Source: Centroberyx gerrardi (taxonomy: Eukaryota; Chordata; Actinopteri; Beryciformes; Berycidae). From it: a stretch of DNA of 64,000 nt. Below the pieces are notes generated by a model. It saw only the letters and a list, made by a program, of their open reading frames with translations, made no database searches and had not been told where the DNA came from. How positions within the stretch are numbered: position 1 is the first letter of the stretch; every line of letters starts with the position of its first letter. The stretch lies in NCBI RefSeq assembly GCF_048128805.1, contig NC_136002.1:27614602-27678601 (forward strand), given 5' to 3'. This document shows, piece by piece, positions 29,443-59,280 of this stretch. Made by a program: the position numbers and the translations under genes.

Positions 29443-32237
29443 CAGTGCCATCAGAAAGTATTCAACACCCCTTGACTTTCCACTCTCTGTGCTGTTGCAG
29501 CCTGAATTCAAAATGGATTAAATTGAGATTTTGTCTCATCTAAACACAATTACCCATAATGTCAAACTGGATTCTTTCACATTTTTAATTGATTAAAACT
29601 GAAATCCTGAGATGTTTTCAGTCAAAACATCTACAAAATACCCCATGATGACAAAGTGAACATGTTTTTAGATGTTTTTTTACAATTTTATAGAAAATGA
29701 AATAGAGAATATCTCATTTAAATAAGTATTCAAGCCACGAGTCAATACTTTGCAGAAGCACATTTGGCAACAACTTATCTTATTGGATACATTGGTATCA
29801 GCTTAGCATATCTGGATTTTGGGATTTTCTCCTATTGTTCCTTGCTGATTTGCTCAAACTCTGTCAAGCTGGATAATGAGCATAACAGCTATCTTTAAAA
29901 CTATTCCACAGATTTTCAATGTGATTTAAGTCTGGGCTTTAGCTAGACCACTCAAAGACTTTCACATTCTGGTTCTGAAGCCATTCCAGTGCTGATTGGC
30001 TGTAGGCTCAGGATCATTGTCCTGTTGGAACATAAATCAACACCCCAATCTAAGGTCCTTGACGCTCTGAAGCAGGTTCTCCTCAAGAATGTTCCTGTAT
30101 TTGGCTCCATACATTTTTCCAAGTTTTACAAGTCTCCCATTCCCTGCCACTGAAAAGCAGCCCCTCTCACATCATCATGCTGCCACCACCATGCTTTACT
30201 GTAGGGACGGTGTTAGATGGGTGATGAGCTGTGCCTGGTTTCCACCAGACGTAATGCTCTGCATTACAGCTGAAGAGTTCAATTTTCATCAGACCACGGA
30301 ATCTTTTACTTCATGTTCCCAGTGCTTCGCATCTTTTTTTGCAAACTCTGGGCGTGTTGTCATGTGGCTTCCCTCTGGCCTCTCTGCCACACAGCACAGA
30401 TATATGAAGTGCTATACTTGTTATCCACTTGCAGCCGAGGAAGTCTGTAGTTCAGTTCAAGTGGTCCTTGGATTATTGGTCACATCCTTGACCAAGGTCC
30501 TTCTTGCCCTGTGGCTCGGCTTTGTCAGATGACCAGCTCTAGGAAGAATCTTAGTTCTATATTTTTTCTATTTCCTAATGATGGAGCCTACTGTGCTCTT
30601 GTGAACTCTCAACACTTTAGTAACTGTTTCATACCCTTCACCACATCTATACCTCCTCACAATCCTGTCTCTGAATTCTATGGACACTTTCTTGGACTTC
30701 ATGGTAGAGTTTCTGCTTCGACATGTACTGTCATCTGTGAGAACTTATATAGGCGTTTTTTCTACATCATTGTCCTGTCAACTGAATTGAAATTCCACTC
30801 CACGTTATGGCGCCAGGGGTAGACAGGATCCGTCCTGAAATGCTGAAGGCTCTGGGTATTGTTGGACTGTTGTGGTTGACACATCTCTTTAATGTCATGT
30901 GGATTTCAGGAACAGTGCCTTCAGATTGGCAGACAGGGGTGGTGGTCTTCATTTTCAAAAAAGAAAATGGGACTAGAGGATGCGTGCCAACTATAAAGGA
31001 ATCACATGGCTCAACAATCCTGGGGAATCCTATATGCCAAGGTGCTGGAAAGGAGACTCTGACCGACTGTTGAACCTTGGATTCAAGGGGAAGAGTGAAG
31101 TCAGAGAACAGTGGACCAGGTTTTTACCCTCACGGATAACTGTGGGGTCAAGGGAGTTTGCTAATCCTGTCTGCTTTGTGGATTTTGAGAAGTTCCCCCG
31201 AGGTACAGTATCTTATGAGAGGTGCTGCAGGAGTATAGGGTGCCAGGGCCGCTGCTGTGACCCACTTGGTCCCTTGGGGTGAGACCTGTATTCACGTTCT
31301 TGGCATTAAGTCAAGCCCTTTCAAGATGGACATCGGACTCCAACAATGATGCACCTTGTCCCCTCTCCTGTTGGTGATATTCATGGACAGGATATCAAGA
31401 CGCAGCAGAGGTCTGGAGAGCGTCCAGTTCGGTGACATTAGAACGGCATCTCTGCTGTTTTTGGATGAGGTCGTCCTTCTGGCATCATGGGACCGTGATC
31501 TCTGGAGTGAAGTGGTTTGCAATCGAGTGACGCAGTCGAGATGAGGAGCAGCACCTCCAAGTCTGAGGCCATGGTTCTCTCGTGGACACCATGGCTCCTG
31601 GAAAGCCATGGTTGCTTACCCCTCATCCTGAGGGATAAGCAACTGCCCCAAGTGGAGGAGTTCAGGTATCTTGGGGTGTTATTCATGAGTGAGGGTAAAA
31701 AGGATCGTGAGATTGACTGCCGGTTAGGGACAGTAATTGCAGTAATGCAGGTGTTTTATCAGACCGTGGTGGTGAAGAGAGAGCTGAGCCACAAAGTAAA
31801 GTTCTCAATTTTACCGGTCGATCTTTGTCCCAACCCTCACCTATGGTCACAAGCTCTGGGTAGAGACCGAAAGAATGACATCGCAGATACATGCAGCAGA
31901 AATGAGGTTTCTCCGCAGGCTGGCTGGCCTCACTCTCCTCTTCTCCCAGCTGGGAGCGCCTTGGGATCCACAGGAGGATCTGGAGGAAGTTGCAGGAGAA
32001 AAGGTGTGGGGCTGCTCTGCTTGCTCTGTTGCCAGCCTGACCCTGACCTAGATAAGTGGATGGATGGATAGATGGATGGCTGGATGGATGGACTTGAACA
32101 TTATGAGTTATTGTGTGTAAATGCTAAAACGAAATCCTAAAAAAAAAAAGAAATCCTAATTTAATCCATTTTGAATTCAGGCTGTAACACCACAAAATGC
32201 AGAAAAAGTCAGGGGCTTATACTTTCTGAAGGCACAG
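29443..32237 (-). mobile_element. Tc1-family transposon remnant split by a LINE
   Basis: The left terminus 'cagtgccatcagaaagta' follows TA at 29,441-29,442. The right terminus 'tactttctgaaggcacag' precedes TA at 32,238-32,239, and the subterminal parts ('gcctgaattcaaaatggatt' against its inverse at about 32,163-32,182) also pair. Between 29,760 and 30,790 lies a degraded Tc1-type transposase read from the minus strand, recognisable from the antisense of the usual catalytic-domain coding sequence. Stops and frameshifts make it inactive. A LINE fragment interrupts it at about 30,807-32,092. Confidence 0.85.
30807..32092 (+). pseudogene. 5'-truncated RTE/Rex3-like LINE inserted in the Tc1 copy
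   Basis: Plus-strand frames give broken reverse-transcriptase blocks in order: 'GVDRIRPEMLKALGIVGLLW' (from about 30,815), 'SGTVPSDWQTGVVV', 'FVDFEKFPRGTVSYE', a degraded catalytic block ('LLFLDEVVLL', where the YADD/FADD-type aspartates are mutated, about 31,455), then 'LPQVEEFRYLGVLF' (about 31,645). It ends in a (GGAT)n tail at 32,057-32,091, as seen in Rex3-type fish elements. Frameshifts and stops occur between blocks. It must be younger than the Tc1 copy it splits. Confidence 0.8.
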
Positions 32238-33542: not shown

Positions 33543-36500
33543 ATGTTTTAGTGTGCGTGCGTGTTCCAAGTGAGAAGCATAAATGGAGCGAGGGAGAAAG
33601 AATTGATAGTGTTTTGCATGAAATTATAAAGATTTACATGACTATTATATCAGCACATTATTGTTAATCTGTCAACACATGAAAGGAAATACCTGAACTT
33701 CATATTCCCCTCCACCGCCAGGTTTGCCATCTCCGTTCACATCATACTGTCAAGAGGAAGAACATCACAGACTCTGAGCACTCTGTATGATCACTGTGCA
33801 ACACAAGCTCTGAAATCACAGCAATGACCAAAAGCTAAGATTCACCTTTTCAAACATAGCATCATACTTGATGTATGCCAACCAGTTTGTCTTGATCCAC
33901 CTCTGGGCCAAGTCAAACGCCACTTGTTTAGCATTCTCCGAAGGCAGTTTGGATAAACCTGAAAATACAAGAGGGTATCAATCACCACTCATAAATCAAC
34001 ACAAAAAATGACTTTATAACACATGGGGCCACTCAAACCAACATAATACAATACCAGTCAAAAGTTTGGACACACCTGATTGAATGTACTATGTTTTTCA
34101 TTCTCTTAAAGCTATTTTGATCTAAAGGCTTATGCTTAAATGCTTGAAATTAGTTTCTTAGACAAATATAAATAGTGAAGTTGAAGCCTATGTGTGAACT
34201 TTCCAAAGCCTTTGCATTTCCATCAAGGCAAAGGGTGGCTGCTTTAAAGAATCTAAAATATAAGATAGTTTTGATTTAACACTTTTTTTGGTCACTGCAT
34301 AATTCCATTTGTGTCATTTCATAGTTTTGATGTCTTTACTATTATTCTAAAATGTGGCATATAGTACAACTGTGTGGCTGCCTTTCCACTGAAGAAACTC
34401 TCACTGTGACAAACATGTTGTTAAAGAAAGCCGCCCACCCTCGATGAGCATGTGCTGTAACGGGGGCCATGCATTAGGGAAGTCCCACTGCTGCCCGCTC
34501 TCTCTCAGCGATGTCGGCACTCCGTTGGGGAACTGGAGGGCGCCGCTCTCCTGTGCGGACAGGAAAAGGACAAGCAAACAACAGCATGCATGAAGGGAAA
34601 TTCTGTAGTATGTGATCGCCATCTGCTGGCACAAATGAGCACTATTGATAAAACACATGTAAAATAACATTTAAAAAAAAATGTAATTTAGCATTTGGTG
34701 TACATTCACATTGGTTACATTATATATTTTTTGAATATTTATTTTGAGCTTTTTCCAATATATAAACATACAGAAATGCAATAAAATGTGAAAAAATACC
34801 AAAAACAGAACACATAGAGACCCCCCACCCACTCCCATCTCCCCACCCCAACACAAATGCACTAATAAACAAAATGCCAGATTACAAATGAAGTATATAA
34901 CATGGATGACTGTTAATTGTCCATGCATGCCAGATTAGTCTGAGTCAACAGTGTCCACACCTGCCACAATAGAACGACCACCAGATCTAAAATTGTCCTC
35001 AAGTCAGAGGAAACCACACAGAAGTAGATTAGATAGAGATAAACATATATTCACATATATAGAGCAGTGAATCTATTCATTAGTGCACTTGTTACTGTAA
35101 GCACAGTATGACTGCACTATGTATCAATCATTGAACAGGAAGACTCCTTTACCCATCAGGCAACAGTAGCCCAGAGATAAGAGAAGTGGGTTTGTGGCCA
35201 AAAGGTTAACGGCTAAAATCTCGGATCAGCTGTGTAAAATGTAGGTGTGGAAAGCAAATAAGCAACACTCTCCCCTCCCTCAGCAACTGCCATTGAGTTT
35301 CCCTTCAGCACAACATTAAAACCCTCAACTGATCCAGTGGAGCTGCTCACTGGCCAGCAGCAGAAGGCTGAGGTTGTGCTGGGCAGCTCCCAGGTGTGGA
35401 GGATGTGTAACTGTACTGGCATGGATAAATAAAGGTTAAATAAACAAAGTGAGTGTATTCCGGTGTATCGAGACCACAGCGAAGCCTGGAGTTTATACCA
35501 ACCTTCAGATACTGTACTGCCTTCTCTCCCATCGCAGGCTGTGAATAGCATTCTGCCCAAATAGGTGCAAGGTTGGAAGGGTAAAATTCAAAGTGGCTGG
35601 AGTGCGTCAGCAGGTTGTAGTCAAACCAGGCTCCCCTCTCAGCATCCCACAACACAGACTCGATTGCCTCCAGTCTGCGGGCTGCAGCCTGGTCATAAAG
35701 TGCAGCTGAGTCACCATCACCTGTCAGAAAACGGCACATCACCGTTACGTAACACCAGTTAGGAGCTAAAAGTAGCGTGCGGACCAAAGTTAGTTGAAGG
35801 TTAAAGGCTGTGTCTCTGCTCAGACGCTCACCCAGGATCCTGTGGAACGAAGCGAGTTTCTTCTCATTGCGACACAGCAGAGCGTTGAGATCCGTGGGCA
35901 GGATCTGGCTGGTCCGGGTCTGTGTGAGGGAGCCGTTGCTGGAGGCTTCGCTGTCCACATACCAGCGGGATGAGAAGTCCCAGCCGGACTCCGCACCTGC
36001 CTTCAGATCCGTCCACAGCTGCTCCCTGCGATCTGAGGCCACAACACAACACAACACACAGAATAAAAACACCTGTGCTGCAGCAACAAATCTGCATCAA
36101 AAACATTTGTTCTTATGTATGCATGTCTTCTTTCTTAACCTGACTCATCACTTTTAAAACATACCTCAAAAGCAAATATTTCTCTGGAAAAAAAATGCCA
36201 TTGTCCCTTTTAAGAATAGAATAACAATTACATGACCTGATGATGAATGATAAAAATGAATATTGTGTTTTGGTTTTTTTTTGTTATTATTTTTATGCAA
36301 AAGGCAGGGGAAACAATCATCACATATAAAGATCATAGACATTTTAATAACAGTAAGAAAAATTCAACATTTTGGACATAAATAATTGCGTATTTTTTAA
36401 AGTGGCTTTTCCTTTTCCTTCCCTTCCGTGTGACGAATGAATATGTGTTTAATTTTAAATATTCATTACCACATGGTACCGAAATACCATAATACTTGAG

Positions 36501-44596: not shown

Positions 44597-51658
<7,062 letters not shown>

Positions 51659-51711: not shown

Positions 51712-52119
51712 CTGGAGAAAGCAAGTCCACTCCACTGGAACTACTAAAAATCTGAGGATTGTCCTTCCCTCTTTAGATTACAATAATTATCCAAATGCAA
51801 TTGATTCAAATCGTTGTCTCAGCAGGTTCCTCAATAATATTGTTCTTTGTGGAACATCTCACCAAGTGTCACGAAACAAATGCTTCTTTGCAAGCTAAAG
51901 AAAATGGCTAAGCAAGTATTCCTTTAGCAAATTTGGGCTTAGCATAGATGTAAATTGTCGACGTTATCTGGAAAATCATACACCAGGAGCGCTTAGCTAG
52001 CTTCCAAGTATTGGCCAACTGTTCAGCTAGCCATCTTGTTTAGCTTAACTCAGCCGTTTCGTCCTTTCTCAGGTTTTTCCAACCCTGAAACACATGAGAA
52101 ATAACGTTAGAAATAGACT

Positions 52120-52800
52120 CCCTGTAGAAAAACTAACATTGCCGTTAGACAATGCTAAGTGGTTAGAAGGGTAGAAGACAATATTTGGGAATGGAAAGCT
52201 TTATCAGGTCGATATTTAGCTAACGTTAGCCGAGTAACGTTATTTGGCTAACTCACTAATGTTAACAGTGGACGGCTGGCCTAACATTAAAAGTTAACCA
52301 ACTCATATTGCGGTAAGTGTTAGCGTTAGCTAAAGACATCGCGACAAAGTCGAAATCGTAAGAAAACTCAAAACTAACGTCAGTATTTTAGGCCCCAGGT
52401 TGAACTTGTGCCAAGTTTAGAGACGGACTAGTGCATCGTTAGCCGGCTAGCTATCTGGCTAACCAGGGACCTTTTCCGTCTGCCTCATCAAGCTAATGCT
52501 AGCAATGAGTTACCCAATTGCTAGCCAGGATCTGGTTTACCAGCACATTAAGCTAACGCTCAGTTTATTTAGCTAATGTTGAAACCCGCTTCGCGATTTG
52601 TTTTCAAGGAGATCGCTGTAGTCGGTTAACAGTTAAAGCAGAAATTTTACCTGACAGCAATGTCAAGATAGAGTCAACCTCGCTAACAAAACTCGATATC
52701 CATCATAACCTAATGTTAGCTAACGTTAGCGAGTTACATCGAGATTGTCGTGTTGTTAGGCTGCTAACGTTAACTGGCTAACGATAGCGAACTAACATTT
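52120..52800. repeat. Cluster of TAACGTTAGC-type motifs in the ddx6 5' intron
   Basis: The palindromic string 'gctaacgttagc' and close variants recur many times (near 52,219, 52,319, 52,715-52,735 and 52,764-52,785) among 'gctagc' and 'gttagct' repeats. It is a low-complexity compositional block upstream of the ddx6 start codon. Confidence 0.7.
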
Positions 52801-52868
52801 AATCACAAAACTCACAGCGAGGTACAAGTGTATATACTTTATAGCTTGCGAATAACATGCAGATTTAC

Positions 52869-52976
52869 CTCGGATGACTGAAACAATCGGTTCACTTTAT
52901 GATGTTTGTGAAGTGGAATCAATTTTTAGCTGACTACGAAGGGGTCTGTCGGACTAAACCGAACGTTCAAGATGGC
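52869..52976 (-). other. ddx6: Candidate non-coding first exon and promoter of ddx6
   Basis: On the minus strand 'CATCCGAG' is followed by a good donor (GTAAATC) at 52,868, so a leader exon could end at 52,869. Its upstream edge is near 52,975, where CAAGATGGC (52,968-52,976, plus strand) matches the YY1 core often found at vertebrate housekeeping start sites. An alternative donor lies near 52,652. The transcription start is inferred, not shown. Confidence 0.4.
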
Positions 52977-53408
52977 TTCCACTCATATTTGAACCCGCCC
53001 ACATCTAACTAATCAGCTGATTTCATTTCAAATCAAGTATTTACCTTAAAGCTGTCCTGCAGCCAAAATAATGTTTTCAGACTAACTTGCTTATGTTCAA
53101 CGTGTCACCCGAGTGTGCTAAGGGTATTCCGTACATTTGGAAATGTTCTCCTTCATCTACTTCCCTGTTAAGGACTCGTCATGCCCCCTCTACTTAGGCA
53201 AATAACATAAACATTAGACACATAGACTGTAAAAAAAAAAAAAAAAAAAAGCCCCAGTTGTCTGAACTGCATCCTGTGACATCTCTCTGGAGGTCAAAAT
53301 AGTCAAATGAGTTTATTGCCACATACACATTACCACAGCTGTATTACTATAACAGGCCAACCTGCCTTACCCTTATGAGAGATGAAGAACTACAGTAATC
53401 CTATAGTA

Positions 53409-53647
53409 CACTGAATGTACAAAATATTAGAGACATCTTCCTGATACTGAGTTGCAGCCCCTTTCGCGCAATCCACATAGTCTCAATCCGTCTCTAACTC
53501 ATCTGCTTCTCTTTATCTAGGCTACATATCATCCTTTGTGATTGGAATAGATTTAATAAGTAAAATCTAATGGTTTTTACCTGGATTCACCTCATCAGTG
53601 TACTTACTGAAAAGAATAAATGTCTCTAACATGTTGTACATTCAGTG
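53409..53647. mobile_element. Tc1-type MITE between ddx6 and the next gene
   Basis: The left end 'cactgaatgtacaaaatatt' continues 'agagacat'. The right end 'atgtctctaacatgttgtac' continues 'attcagtg'. These are good inverted repeats, flanked by TA at 53,407-53,408 and 53,648-53,649. It is 239 bases long with no transposase. Related full-length fish Tc1-type elements share these ends. Confidence 0.8.
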
Positions 53648-53886
53648 TACTATTTAGAAGGATTCTATACAAATATCACAGCAAAACAATGTAATATCCT
53701 AAAAGGAATTTGACAGGTCTAGTGATTCCATAAGAGATTAAACAAAAATACCAAAAGTACGATAAGGCCAGTAACTCACTATTGCATACCACAGACACAG
53801 TAAAAGTCCCTATAGGATGAATGTTATAGTGTTAGGGTAAGAGGACTTGGCAATAAGTGTGATCACTTTGAGAAAGTTTTTTTTTA

Positions 53887-54920
53887 ATGGAATATATCAG
53901 AATATCACCAAGGAAGCATCTGAACTTCGTAACGGGACGCTACGATGTAATTGGAGCTTCTGAGGATGATGAAAGTCAGGACGACGAATTATGGCCAAAA
54001 GCTGACATCAAATCGACTGAAGGCGAAAGCAGAATAAGAGGTATGGTCATTTAATATTTAGTGTTTTATGTTGACTTTCCGTCTGAATGTGTGAAAACTT
54101 TATCTAGCACTTTGCAGCCAGATAAAATGTGGACGAACTACGTAGTATACTAGCTTGCTAGCCTGACTGCAAGCTAACCAGCAGTTAACCAGCAGTTTGC
54201 ATTTTGTTTGCTCCCGTTATCTGGACACTGCCATGGCATATGAAACGTTGTGTTTTCTTAATTGAAGACTGAGGGTGTCTAAAAGCTTTTTGCAGATGTG
54301 TGTGTTCAATAGAGCTAGCCTATACAGTTATTCTAACCCATTATCACAACGATCCTCCTGGATGACTATTGCTTTATAGTGAATTGATTGATTAAAAAGA
54401 AAAAAGAAAAAAGAAAAAGATCAGAGCCAGCCACAGCCACTGCCAGCAGTGAGAGAGAAGCCCAGTCAGGTCAGCAGCCTAGGACTGGGCACAGCAGAAG
54501 TGATGAATCAGCTCCACCTGCATGGTAGGTCAAGTTCTGGCAGTTCCAGATGTGTCCTCCTCCTCCATGAACATACTTGAATTTGCCATGTACTCTCACA
54601 TTTAATGTTAATAAGCAGGGATAGATCACCAACCTGTTTTCACCTATTCAAAACAGCACAACAAAGCATAGCATACAAAGCAAAATATTGTATCTGTGAT
54701 TGTATCTGTGTCTTCAGATACTTCACCCAGGGCTGACCAGCCCCACCCAGAAGAGGTTAGTGAGGAGCTGATCCAGCAGTGTCTGCAGCTCCACCTGCAC
54801 ATCCTGGTATGTCAAGTTCTGCTACTTCCTGATGTGTCTTCCATGAACATTCACCTGAAGTTGCCATGCACTCTGACATTTGATTTAATTCAAAAAAGGA
54901 TGGTCTACTTTTGCTCATAA
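53887..54920 (+). CDS. Unrecognised small protein, three exons
   Basis: I do not recognise this protein. A three-exon model fits: 53887-54040, 54420-54524 and 54718-54920. All junctions are phase 1 with GT/AG borders, and the total of 462 bases gives 153 residues plus stop. Residues 1-51 begin MEYIRISPRKHLNF and carry an acidic run EDDESQDDELW (about 26-36). Exon 2 is exactly 35 codons, proline- and glutamine-rich, ending EVMNQLHLH. Exon 3 has EELIQQCLQLHLHIL, a related helical motif. The exon 2 and exon 3 ends plus flanking sequence are duplicates of one another (54,511-54,612 and 54,788-54,890). No signal peptide or membrane segment is obvious. An AATAAA lies at 55,239-55,244. Weak points: exon 2's acceptor has a purine-rich tract, the start context is weak at -3, and no homologue is known to me. 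Confidence 0.5.
54511..54890 (+). repeat. Duplicated exon-intron segment in the unrecognised gene
   Basis: 54,511-54,612 and 54,788-54,890 are diverged copies. Both run from 'gctccacctg' through the donor region 'tcaagttctg' and 'gatgtgtc' to 'ccatgaaca' and 'cacattt/gacattt'. The first copy has a donor (GTAGGT); the second has GTATGT but can also read through to a stop at 54,918. Confidence 0.75.
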
Positions 54921-55238
54921 AGGCTCATAAAGATTTAAAGGTGCAGTCATGAATCCTAGTGTAAGAGCTTGCAGGCAGCATATAGTTAAGTTAAGCTACC
55001 TATTGTACTTCATGAGAGCCTAAAAGTTTACAGAACATATATTACTTTACAGTACATAATTTCTTTGAAGTTAAGATTTGTTTGGTTTATGTTCCAATTG
55101 TTTACAATTTTAAATTATTGGCTATGCGACTGTATGAGTCCATCTTCTATAAATACTTTGTAACCTTATTAAGGTTAACCTTATTGTCATTATGTTCATG
55201 AATGTATTCATATTGTAATGGCCTTCCATATTTTGTTT

Positions 55239-55244
55239 AATAAA
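55239..55244 (+). terminator. Candidate poly(A) signal of the unrecognised gene
   Basis: AATAAA about 320 bases after the stop codon at 54,918-54,920, on the same strand and before cxcr5 begins. Confidence 0.5.
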
Positions 55245-56076: not shown

Positions 56077-59000
56077 ATGGATGGAAGAGTGCCAGTGATA
56101 ATTGAATATCCGGTAAGATGTGACAAAGATTTGTTGAAGAGAATGTTTAAGTGCTGTTAATATTTATTCTGTAATAATTGTTCTGTAGAATTATTGTTCC
56201 TTTAAAAGGCTTCGTTAAACAGTCACATTCTATTCACACATTCTATTCTAGGTTTCTGCTTTATTATTTTTTCTGTTATGAGTTTTATGTCTGAGATTCA
56301 AAATATAATCAATTCTAAATATAATGTTTTTGTTTTCAATTTGTAATTTCCATATTTTCAAAATAATGTCATAATTATTGATAAGATTTATTAAGCGATT
56401 GGTAAAAAATTCCATTGCAATGGGGCAGCTTCAGATAGCTATGATACACTGTATGATAAGATGGTAATCTCTTTATTTTCTGTAAAAGCCTCAGCTGCAG
56501 CCTCTTGCATTTGAGTGCAACAGACTTTAAGGTTTGAGCACGGTGTTGTTAGTTACTATGATAAATAGTGAAATGCAGGGTTTATTAAATTGTTGCAGTT
56601 GAGTGAGTGCATAACTAGCTTCAATCACTGGACCAAGACAGAAAAAGGGTACTTACTTAAGTAGGGTGTGTTCTATTTCCTAACAGAGAAACATGAAAGG
56701 AAGAAACTCACTCTGAAACATCCAAAATGTTTTTATAATTTTATGCAAAAGGGCAGTAGTGTGATTTATTTATTTTTGCTACCCATGGGCTTCAAATATC
56801 TTGTAATTCATTTGTTGTCACACTATAGCAGAATATAAAAATTAACAGAGTCAGACAATTTATGAAAAAGCCACAGAGATTATTTCTAATTCTGGAGATC
56901 TGAAAGCAGCATATCATCAGTCTGATGATCGATATCAGTTGTAATTTCAATCAGACGGATAAACGTAATTATTCTACAGAGGAAATTGTATTGTAAAAAA
57001 AAAAAAGATTTGTGGCATAAAGAAGAAAAAGTTACAATCAGTACAGCATGTAATCATCATCAGATTTCCATGTGATAATAATATTGACTGTGAGGAAATT
57101 CTAATTAGTTTATGTTTCACTGTGTTTGTTTCTATCCTGTTGGTTGTTATTTTCATCACAACAGATTCTTTCACCAGTTCATTTTAAAGTTAGACCTTGA
57201 AGCTGTTATGTAGGTTGCAAGTGAAATAAAACTAAATTTATGATTACTCGAAGGCTCAGTCTAGTCCCGTTGTGACATCTCTAAGTGCTTAACTGAATGA
57301 TGTTGGCCTGGTACAGTAGTACAGAAAATGAGTATTTTCTTAATGTTAGCCAGTGGCCTTCTGTTGTGTAATGTATTACAATCACATCCTGCGCCAAACC
57401 ATTTTGCATCTGTCTAAAACTAGCAAGAGATGGGCTGCTGTAAAATCCCCCACTGTTCAAACAATCTGCATTGCAAAGGATGCATTTAGTTAGAGGAACT
57501 TGTGGCTAGTGGCAGGAAGGCTGTGGCTTTTGTGTGGTTTATAGTTGCTAAGTATCTGGACATCCATGTATTTCACATTAAAACAAAACAATATGGCACA
57601 GAGTCCATCCTGCATCTGAAATCACACTGAAATTCAAGAGGATGTATTCAGGCTTTTCCTGTATAAGATATATCCATATTTTGGTACAGACTTAACACAA
57701 TTATTGTATTGTACCTATGTGACAACGTGTAAATCTTAAATGATTTTAAGTTAGTACAATTGTATTTTTTCGTAATACTCATGTTGGGGGAACAGGCCAC
57801 AACAGCTCTGATTTCTCAAACACTGATACGATTTTAACATGGTAGCAAATATATAGATACAGAATCTAAGCGGACACTTTATTGTGTCTCATATTCAGTT
57901 TTTAGTAATATGAGTGATATAAGTAATATGTTTTCACATATTTGTCCAAGCAGTTCTGCCACTTACTGTGTTGGGGAAGTGTGGAAGTTCTGGCCTAGTC
58001 AGTGTTTCCTGCATATTTTGACTGACTGTGTAAACTATGGGGAACAGAGACCAAAACAATGCAGCAATTTCCAGTATATTCAGTCTTAGTTGATGATGCA
58101 TCATTCATTTATCAAAAACAAAACTGACTAACAAAGAGTGCAAAGAGCAACACACTATTCTCAATGACTGTGACAAGTAAAAGTAACAATTTCACCTCTA
58201 TATTTTTAGGATTACAGCGGATTTTTTAATTCATCAGAGGACGATCCATTCGAGAATGGAAAGATATACGTCTGTGACGACAATCAGATCGGCCTGGAGA
58301 CGTTTAATGTCGTGTTCAAGCCTCTGGTCTACAGCCTGGTGTTTCTCCTGGGCCTGGTGGGGAACGGCCTGATGCTGACGGTGCTCTTGACGCGCAGGGG
58401 CCCCCTCCGCATCACTGAGATCTACCTACTGCACCTCGCCCTGGCTGACCTCCTGCTCGTTTTTACCTTCCCATTTACTGTGGCTGAGATTTTAACTGGA
58501 TGGGTGTTTGGGGAGTTTCTCTGCAAGCTGGTGGGCCTGCTGAAACACCTAAACCTTCTCAGTGGGACTCTCCTTCTAGCTTGCATTGGGTTTGACCGGT
58601 ATTTGGCTATTGTTCACGCTGTTCGTAGCATGCAAAGTCGGCGTCCCAGAACAGTGCACCTAACCTGCATGTTCCTGTGGCTGCTCTGTTTGGGCTTATC
58701 AGCACCGAATACTGTGTTCCTTTATGTGATTGACAATCCCACAAATAAAACCCAGCTCACCTGCTTCTTTTCTTATCATTATGGTAAACATGCACACAAC
58801 TGGATTTTGGCCAGTCGCTTAACAGTTGTCTTGAGCTTTTTCCTATCTCTGGCTGTCATGATCTACTGTTACACAGCAGTGGTAGTTTCTCTGTGCCACA
58901 GTCAGAAAAGCCAGCAGAAGCAGGGTGCCATTCGGCTGGCTTTGCTCGTCACTGCTGTCTTCTGCCTCTGTTGGCTGCCATATAATGTCACCATGGCGGT

Positions 59001-59280
59001 AGAGACCATGGACGACTTCAACGTGATGTCCAACGGAAGCTGTGCAGCTTACAAAGCACTAGCAGAAGCCCATGCGGTGACAAAGAGCCTGGGTTACTCA
59101 CACTGCTGCCTGAACCCTTTCCTGTATGCCTTTATTGGGGTGCGCTTTCGCAATGACTTAATGCGGTTACTTTCCAGATGGGGCTGCAGGCGCGTTTGTC
59201 TGCCTTTCGTCAAAGCTCAGGGTCACAGTCGGTCATCAATTTCTGACGGAGTGACAACCACCAGCAGCATCTACATGTAA
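56077..59280 (+). CDS. cxcr5: CXC chemokine receptor 5 (GPCR)
   Basis: Seven-helix receptor; in mammals it binds CXCL13 and steers B cells and follicular helper T cells into lymphoid follicles. Two exons: 56077-56112 encodes only the first 12 residues (MDGRVPVIIEYP), and 58210-59280 encodes the rest, across a phase-0 intron of 2.1 kb. This gives 368 residues (human 372). Features: extracellular glycosylation site N19, N-terminal Cys34, TM1 asparagine in GLVGN at 64, LALAD in TM2, Cys117 and Cys197 for the TM3-ECL2 disulfide, DRYLAIVHA at 141-149, CWLP at 266-269, Cys290 in ECL3 to pair with Cys34, and NPFLY at 314-318. The tail is Ser/Thr-rich, as needed for arrestin control. The tiny first exon plus large second exon, and the ddx6/bcl9l neighbours, favour cxcr5 over other CXC receptors. 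All signalling motifs are intact. Confidence 0.9.

Follow-up and report, generated by a model that had tools for sequence, protein, structure and literature searches.

Does the interval between ddx6 and cxcr5 in this fish genome contain a small gene that has escaped record? The window, that is, the whole 64,000-nucleotide stretch of DNA analyzed here, covers a neighborhood that we take to be the TREH-DDX6-CXCR5-BCL9L block of vertebrate chromosomes. Pfam searches recognized the trehalase and rhodopsin-type receptor ORFs but found no match for two bcl9l-like ORFs; the names cxcr5 and bcl9l were assigned by eye from the ORF list. Among the matches listed, titles and the openings of abstracts on this neighborhood mention no gene at the place between ddx6 and cxcr5. 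Judged from the analyses described below, chances appear about even that a small gene is present at the locus, and somewhat lower that a protein would be made from it.

The original prediction placed an undescribed three-exon gene here, and its basic construction was reproduced upon recomputation. The segments 53887-54040, 54420-54524, and 54718-54920, whose coordinates are exact, are all open and join in phase 1 at both junctions into 462 nt, corresponding to 153 codons plus a stop (154 including the stop). The middle exon of this model is symmetric (105 nt, 35 codons), exon 1 carries the acidic run EDDESQDDELW, and an AATAAA is found at 55239-55244 of the plus strand, 319 nt past the end of the stop at 54920 (320 had been claimed). 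Also present is the purine-rich tract before the exon-2 acceptor at 54420, which the prediction had itself counted as a weakness. We rejected this acceptor, which scores -22, lower than 99.9% of AGs, and is very probably wrong. Directly before it, positions 54394-54419 form a purine run with AAAAAAG-type repeats, possibly a simple repeat that has expanded close to the true acceptor.

Splice scores, obtained like the codon and start-context scores with approximate tables, were compared with those of ddx6 in the same window. The ddx6 donors taken as true (8 of 11 rows) range from 2.6 to 7.8 and the acceptors (10 of 11 rows) from -1.2 to 8.7; the rows dropped were a start-codon acceptor row (-5.0), two donor rows in which the alignment ran past the exon end (0.4 and -1.7), and a donor row lying after the coding region had ended (5.0). 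Inside these ranges fall the candidate donors at 54040 (GAG/GTATGG, score 3.9, top 1.5% of GTs), 54524 (3.8), and 54806 (CTG/GTATGT, 3.7), all three within the top 1.5-1.8% of GTs, as well as the acceptor at 54718 (2.7, top 4.5% of AGs). For exon 2, a frame-preserving AG pair at 54447/54450 scores -1.7/-2.3, compared with -22 at 54420. Even as a corrected site, 54447 is weak, lying slightly under the lowest ddx6 acceptor.

A local duplication bears on the other end of the model. Its two copies, A and B, share 77% identity across 111 aligned columns (E 3e-17), and a local alignment spanning more of the region scores 136, compared with a maximum of 58 in 300 plain shuffles. The donor is retained in both copies, that of exon 2 at 54524 being aligned to 54806 inside exon 3. 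The original prediction was right that the two later exons share an LHLH motif, but they do so because the exon end was duplicated at the DNA level, and the motif provides no independent evidence of a domain. Most of the last 37 residues of the first model (54807-54920) correspond to intron in the other copy. Specifically, 54807-54889 is homologous to the intron following exon 2, the read-through scores -0.24 per codon, and this C-terminus was rejected; exon 3 probably ends at the donor 54806, not at the stop at 54920. The model exactly as first proposed, with three exons, 153 aa, and exon 3 read to that stop, is thus highly improbable: its frame is open as claimed, with the AATAAA at the distance given above, but its exon-2 acceptor is among the worst 0.1% of AGs and its last 37 codons are noncoding by score and mostly match intron in the other copy. 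What stands is that a small spliced locus on the plus strand is plausible between ddx6 and cxcr5.

The arrangement resembles tandem exon duplication within a gene in that an exon end, a donor, and an intron start are repeated side by side. It differs in that the bodies of exons 2 and 3 are barely alike, their borderline score being reached by 13 of 1000 plain shuffles, so that duplication of a whole exon is unsupported. Three comparisons of the further flanks detected no likeness (820, 159, and 710 of 1000 shuffles reached the score). The exon bodies diverge more between the copies than the intron does, a pattern that does not point to purifying selection.

With the corrected acceptor and the earlier end of exon 3, a four-exon model of 116 aa appears to fit better than the three-exon model (Table 1). 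An acceptor at 54923 (score 1.6) is in phase 0 with the donor 54806 across a 116-nt intron, and would place the stop 287 nt from the AATAAA at 55239. This choice of exon-4 acceptor is presumptive, since an alternative at 54975 (-0.8) would give 111 aa; the tail encoded by exon 4 scores -0.4 over 9 codons, which is too short for judgement. If the gene is real, it would probably comprise four exons and end elsewhere than first proposed.

Table 1. Coordinates of the candidate exons, the duplicated segment, and neighboring features in the window.
Feature	Position	Strand	Description
Trehalase ORF	35350-36096	minus	Pfam E 4.2e-35
ddx6	start codon at 51658	minus	exons located using the human protein
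CpG-rich stretch, possible promoter (weak)	53841-54120	plus	CpG o/e up to 1.18 over exon 1
Candidate exon 1	53887-54040	plus	ATG, 51 codons + 1 base, acidic run, open frame
Candidate exon 2	54447-54524	plus	corrected acceptor, AG pair 54447/54450
Candidate exon 3	54718-54806	plus	internal exon ending CTG/GTATGT
Read-through region	54807-54920	plus	C-terminal part of first model; intron more likely
Possible exon 4, coding part	54923-54952	plus	AHKDLKVQS + stop, then 3'UTR
Duplication copy A	54509-54612	plus	exon 2 end, donor GTAGGT, start of next intron
Duplication copy B	54786-54889	plus	exon 3 end, donor GTATGT at 54807, then following sequence
cxcr5-like GPCR ORF (rhodopsin-type receptor)	58210-59280	plus	Pfam 7tm_1, E 2.9e-54

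That three short frames might fit by chance had been conceded in the original prediction, and the answer varies with the thresholds applied. Under strict thresholds, derived from the candidate in that splice scores had to be at least equal to its own, one of the 96 windows of 1.5 kb that were presumed to be noncoding held a model as long as 153 aa, and none of 100 dinucleotide shuffles did. When the acceptor cut was -2.3, none of the 96 windows or 100 shuffles reached 140 aa, and one of the 96 windows reached 110 aa. Looser thresholds applied to 3.2-kb windows gave three-exon models of 144 aa or longer in 9 of 44 controls and no model in 30 of 44; the best model on the plus strand of the candidate region was 144 aa. 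The minus strand of that region yielded no three-exon model at these looser thresholds, like the 30 controls, and an opposite-strand three-exon gene was rejected. All of these counts refer to control windows that overlap mutually and some of which may contain unrecognized genes. Given candidate-derived strict thresholds, overlapping controls, and loose-threshold controls that are as long in 9 of 44 cases, the joined frame by itself counts as modest evidence; it exceeds chance by length alone only partly.

Coding content differed between the exons. Exon 3 up to the donor 54806 scores +0.33 per codon, a value reached by 4 of 958 control ORFs by mean and 28 of 958 by best sub-window, and exon 2, read from 54420 (34 codons), scores +0.22 (12 and 50 of 739, respectively). 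Exon 1 scores +0.08 (28 and 66 of 308), compared with 0.07 and 0.07 in the other forward frames, in which stops were unpenalized. The score of the read-through 54807-54920 was reached by 436 of 643 control ORFs by mean and 522 of 643 by best sub-window. On the opposite strand of exon 3, one frame scores 0.35. The same measure over 51-codon stretches ranges from -0.18 to 0.38 in the cxcr5 ORF and from -0.06 to 0.17 in the bcl9l ORF, and such wide variation indicates that the measure is low in power.

We also scanned the whole window on both strands for internal exons, keeping the best of the 852 candidates at each place. With its end at 54806, exon 3 ranked 16th, and exon 2 ranked 56th. The best form of exon 3 uses an acceptor at 54731 (score 20.3) whose phase is incompatible with exon 2, and the form starting at 54718 scores 18.3; the former lies above six of the eight tagged ddx6 exons and the latter above five. 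Of the 15 higher-ranked internal exons, 11 fall within ddx6 or within sequence like cxcr5, treh, or bcl9l, including ranks 2 and 15, which are ddx6 rows left untagged by the script. The remaining four (ranks 4, 6, 7, and 14) lie outside all recognized genes on their strand, which means that nongenic DNA can match the score of exon 3. GC content is 0.51 around exons 2 and 3, compared with about 0.35-0.39 alongside. Among initial exons, exon 1 ranked 25th, the presumed first exon of cxcr5 28th, and the first exon of ddx6 7th.

These results bear on the explanation by accident, in which stop-free segments of intergenic DNA and sites resembling splice sites happen to join here, and which we regard as rather improbable. 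The breadth of the first reading, which spanned 64 kb and both strands, the loose-threshold controls, the poor exon-2 acceptor, and the exons outside recognized genes that equal the score of exon 3 all favor accident, but they have to be set against the 16th rank of exon 3 in the window and the strict-threshold counts obtained with the corrected acceptor (no window among 96 and no shuffle among 100 at 140 aa; a single window at 110 aa).

A gene at this position would be head-to-head with ddx6, and the original prediction suggested a common promoter. The two are indeed on opposite strands, but a common promoter is not favored, as their CpG-rich stretches are apart: the stretch at the ddx6 start spans 52041-53040, with CpG o/e up to 1.63 (window mean, 0.39), and the DNA between its end at about 53040 and 53841 is CpG-poor. 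Exon 1 contains eight CpGs, and the CpGs in its vicinity are concentrated within the exon. A separate start is favored only slightly, because 25 stretches across the window pass the same CpG cut and no CpG occurs in the 100 bases preceding exon 1; as promoter evidence, the CpG peak was downgraded in view of the 25 such stretches. The start codon has a weak context, with T at -3 and a score of -1.7.

Searches for relatives of the candidate protein gave no Pfam match up to E 10 and no significant match in PDB, where the best hit, 3h4c (E 0.056), was taken as a chance match and rejected. No relative was confirmed among viral contigs (nine pattern matches) or prokaryote contigs (81), where a fish gene would be unexpected. 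No Rfam family reached its gathering score, and ARAGORN (bacterial settings) found no tRNA or tmRNA gene; a bacterial-type promoter scan of the region is not meaningful for fish DNA. A single-sequence fold of 54720-54917, which includes the read-through, has helices at residues 15-34, 37-40, and 44-64 with a mean pLDDT of 63, which is low confidence, and a helix in this low-confidence fold covers the stretch EEVSEELIQQCLQLHLHIL.

A spliced noncoding RNA or a decayed gene, with real exons and no functional protein, would likewise present what is seen here: good donors, a single good acceptor, a signal for polyadenylation, and a weak rise in CpG. The weak start context, an exon 1 coding score barely above those of the other forward frames, and the lack of detected protein relatives in Pfam and PDB point in the same direction, but three segments that are open in compatible phases and the coding-like scores of exons 2 and 3 do not, and we consider this explanation unlikely, though worth serious attention.

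Our preferred reading, to which we give a little less than an even chance, is an apparently unrecorded small fish gene on the plus strand with its own start, about four exons, and a putative protein of about 116 aa. Transcription would begin at or shortly before 53.9 kb, apart from the ddx6 start; splicing would join 53887-54040, 54447-54524, 54718-54806, and 54923 to about 55260, and polyadenylation would follow 55239. In the predicted product, the N-terminal part would be acidic and, judged by eye, disordered. Two exon-encoded segments would follow, each with LHLH at or near its end, the second having the helix-like stretch noted above. The likeliest role of the product may be that of a small adaptor, the helix serving to bind a partner. 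A more specific version, in which a fast-evolving fish gene with its own promoter had its helix-bearing exon reshaped by partial tandem duplication of the preceding exon, is more tentative still.

If expressed and conserved, such a gene would add a small member to the TREH-DDX6-CXCR5-BCL9L block and provide a clear case of a copied exon end and intron reshaping an adjacent exon. If it is not a gene, the locus would illustrate how a perfectly phased three-exon frame misleads when splice strength and local duplication are left unchecked. The candidate is like the conserved small-ORF genes of vertebrates (for example, the set in PMC4568590) in that its putative product is short, has no known domain, and lies outside standard annotation; it differs in that it is known from sequence alone, its frame extends over several exons, and its disorder was judged by eye.

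Several other features of the window were observed. The presumed first coding exon of cxcr5 (MDGRVPVIIEYP) at 56077-56112 has a good donor (score 5.1) and was linked by eye to the long ORF from about 58210. ORFs in 30786-31615 resemble, by eye, fragments of a LINE reverse transcriptase; Pfam at E 0.01 gave no match for the LINE-like ORF at 30786-31070. Between ddx6 and the candidate, the arms of an inverted repeat at 53403-53436 and 53620-53653 are 94% alike over 34 bases and lie about 180 bases apart; they look like the termini of a short DNA transposon of teleosts.
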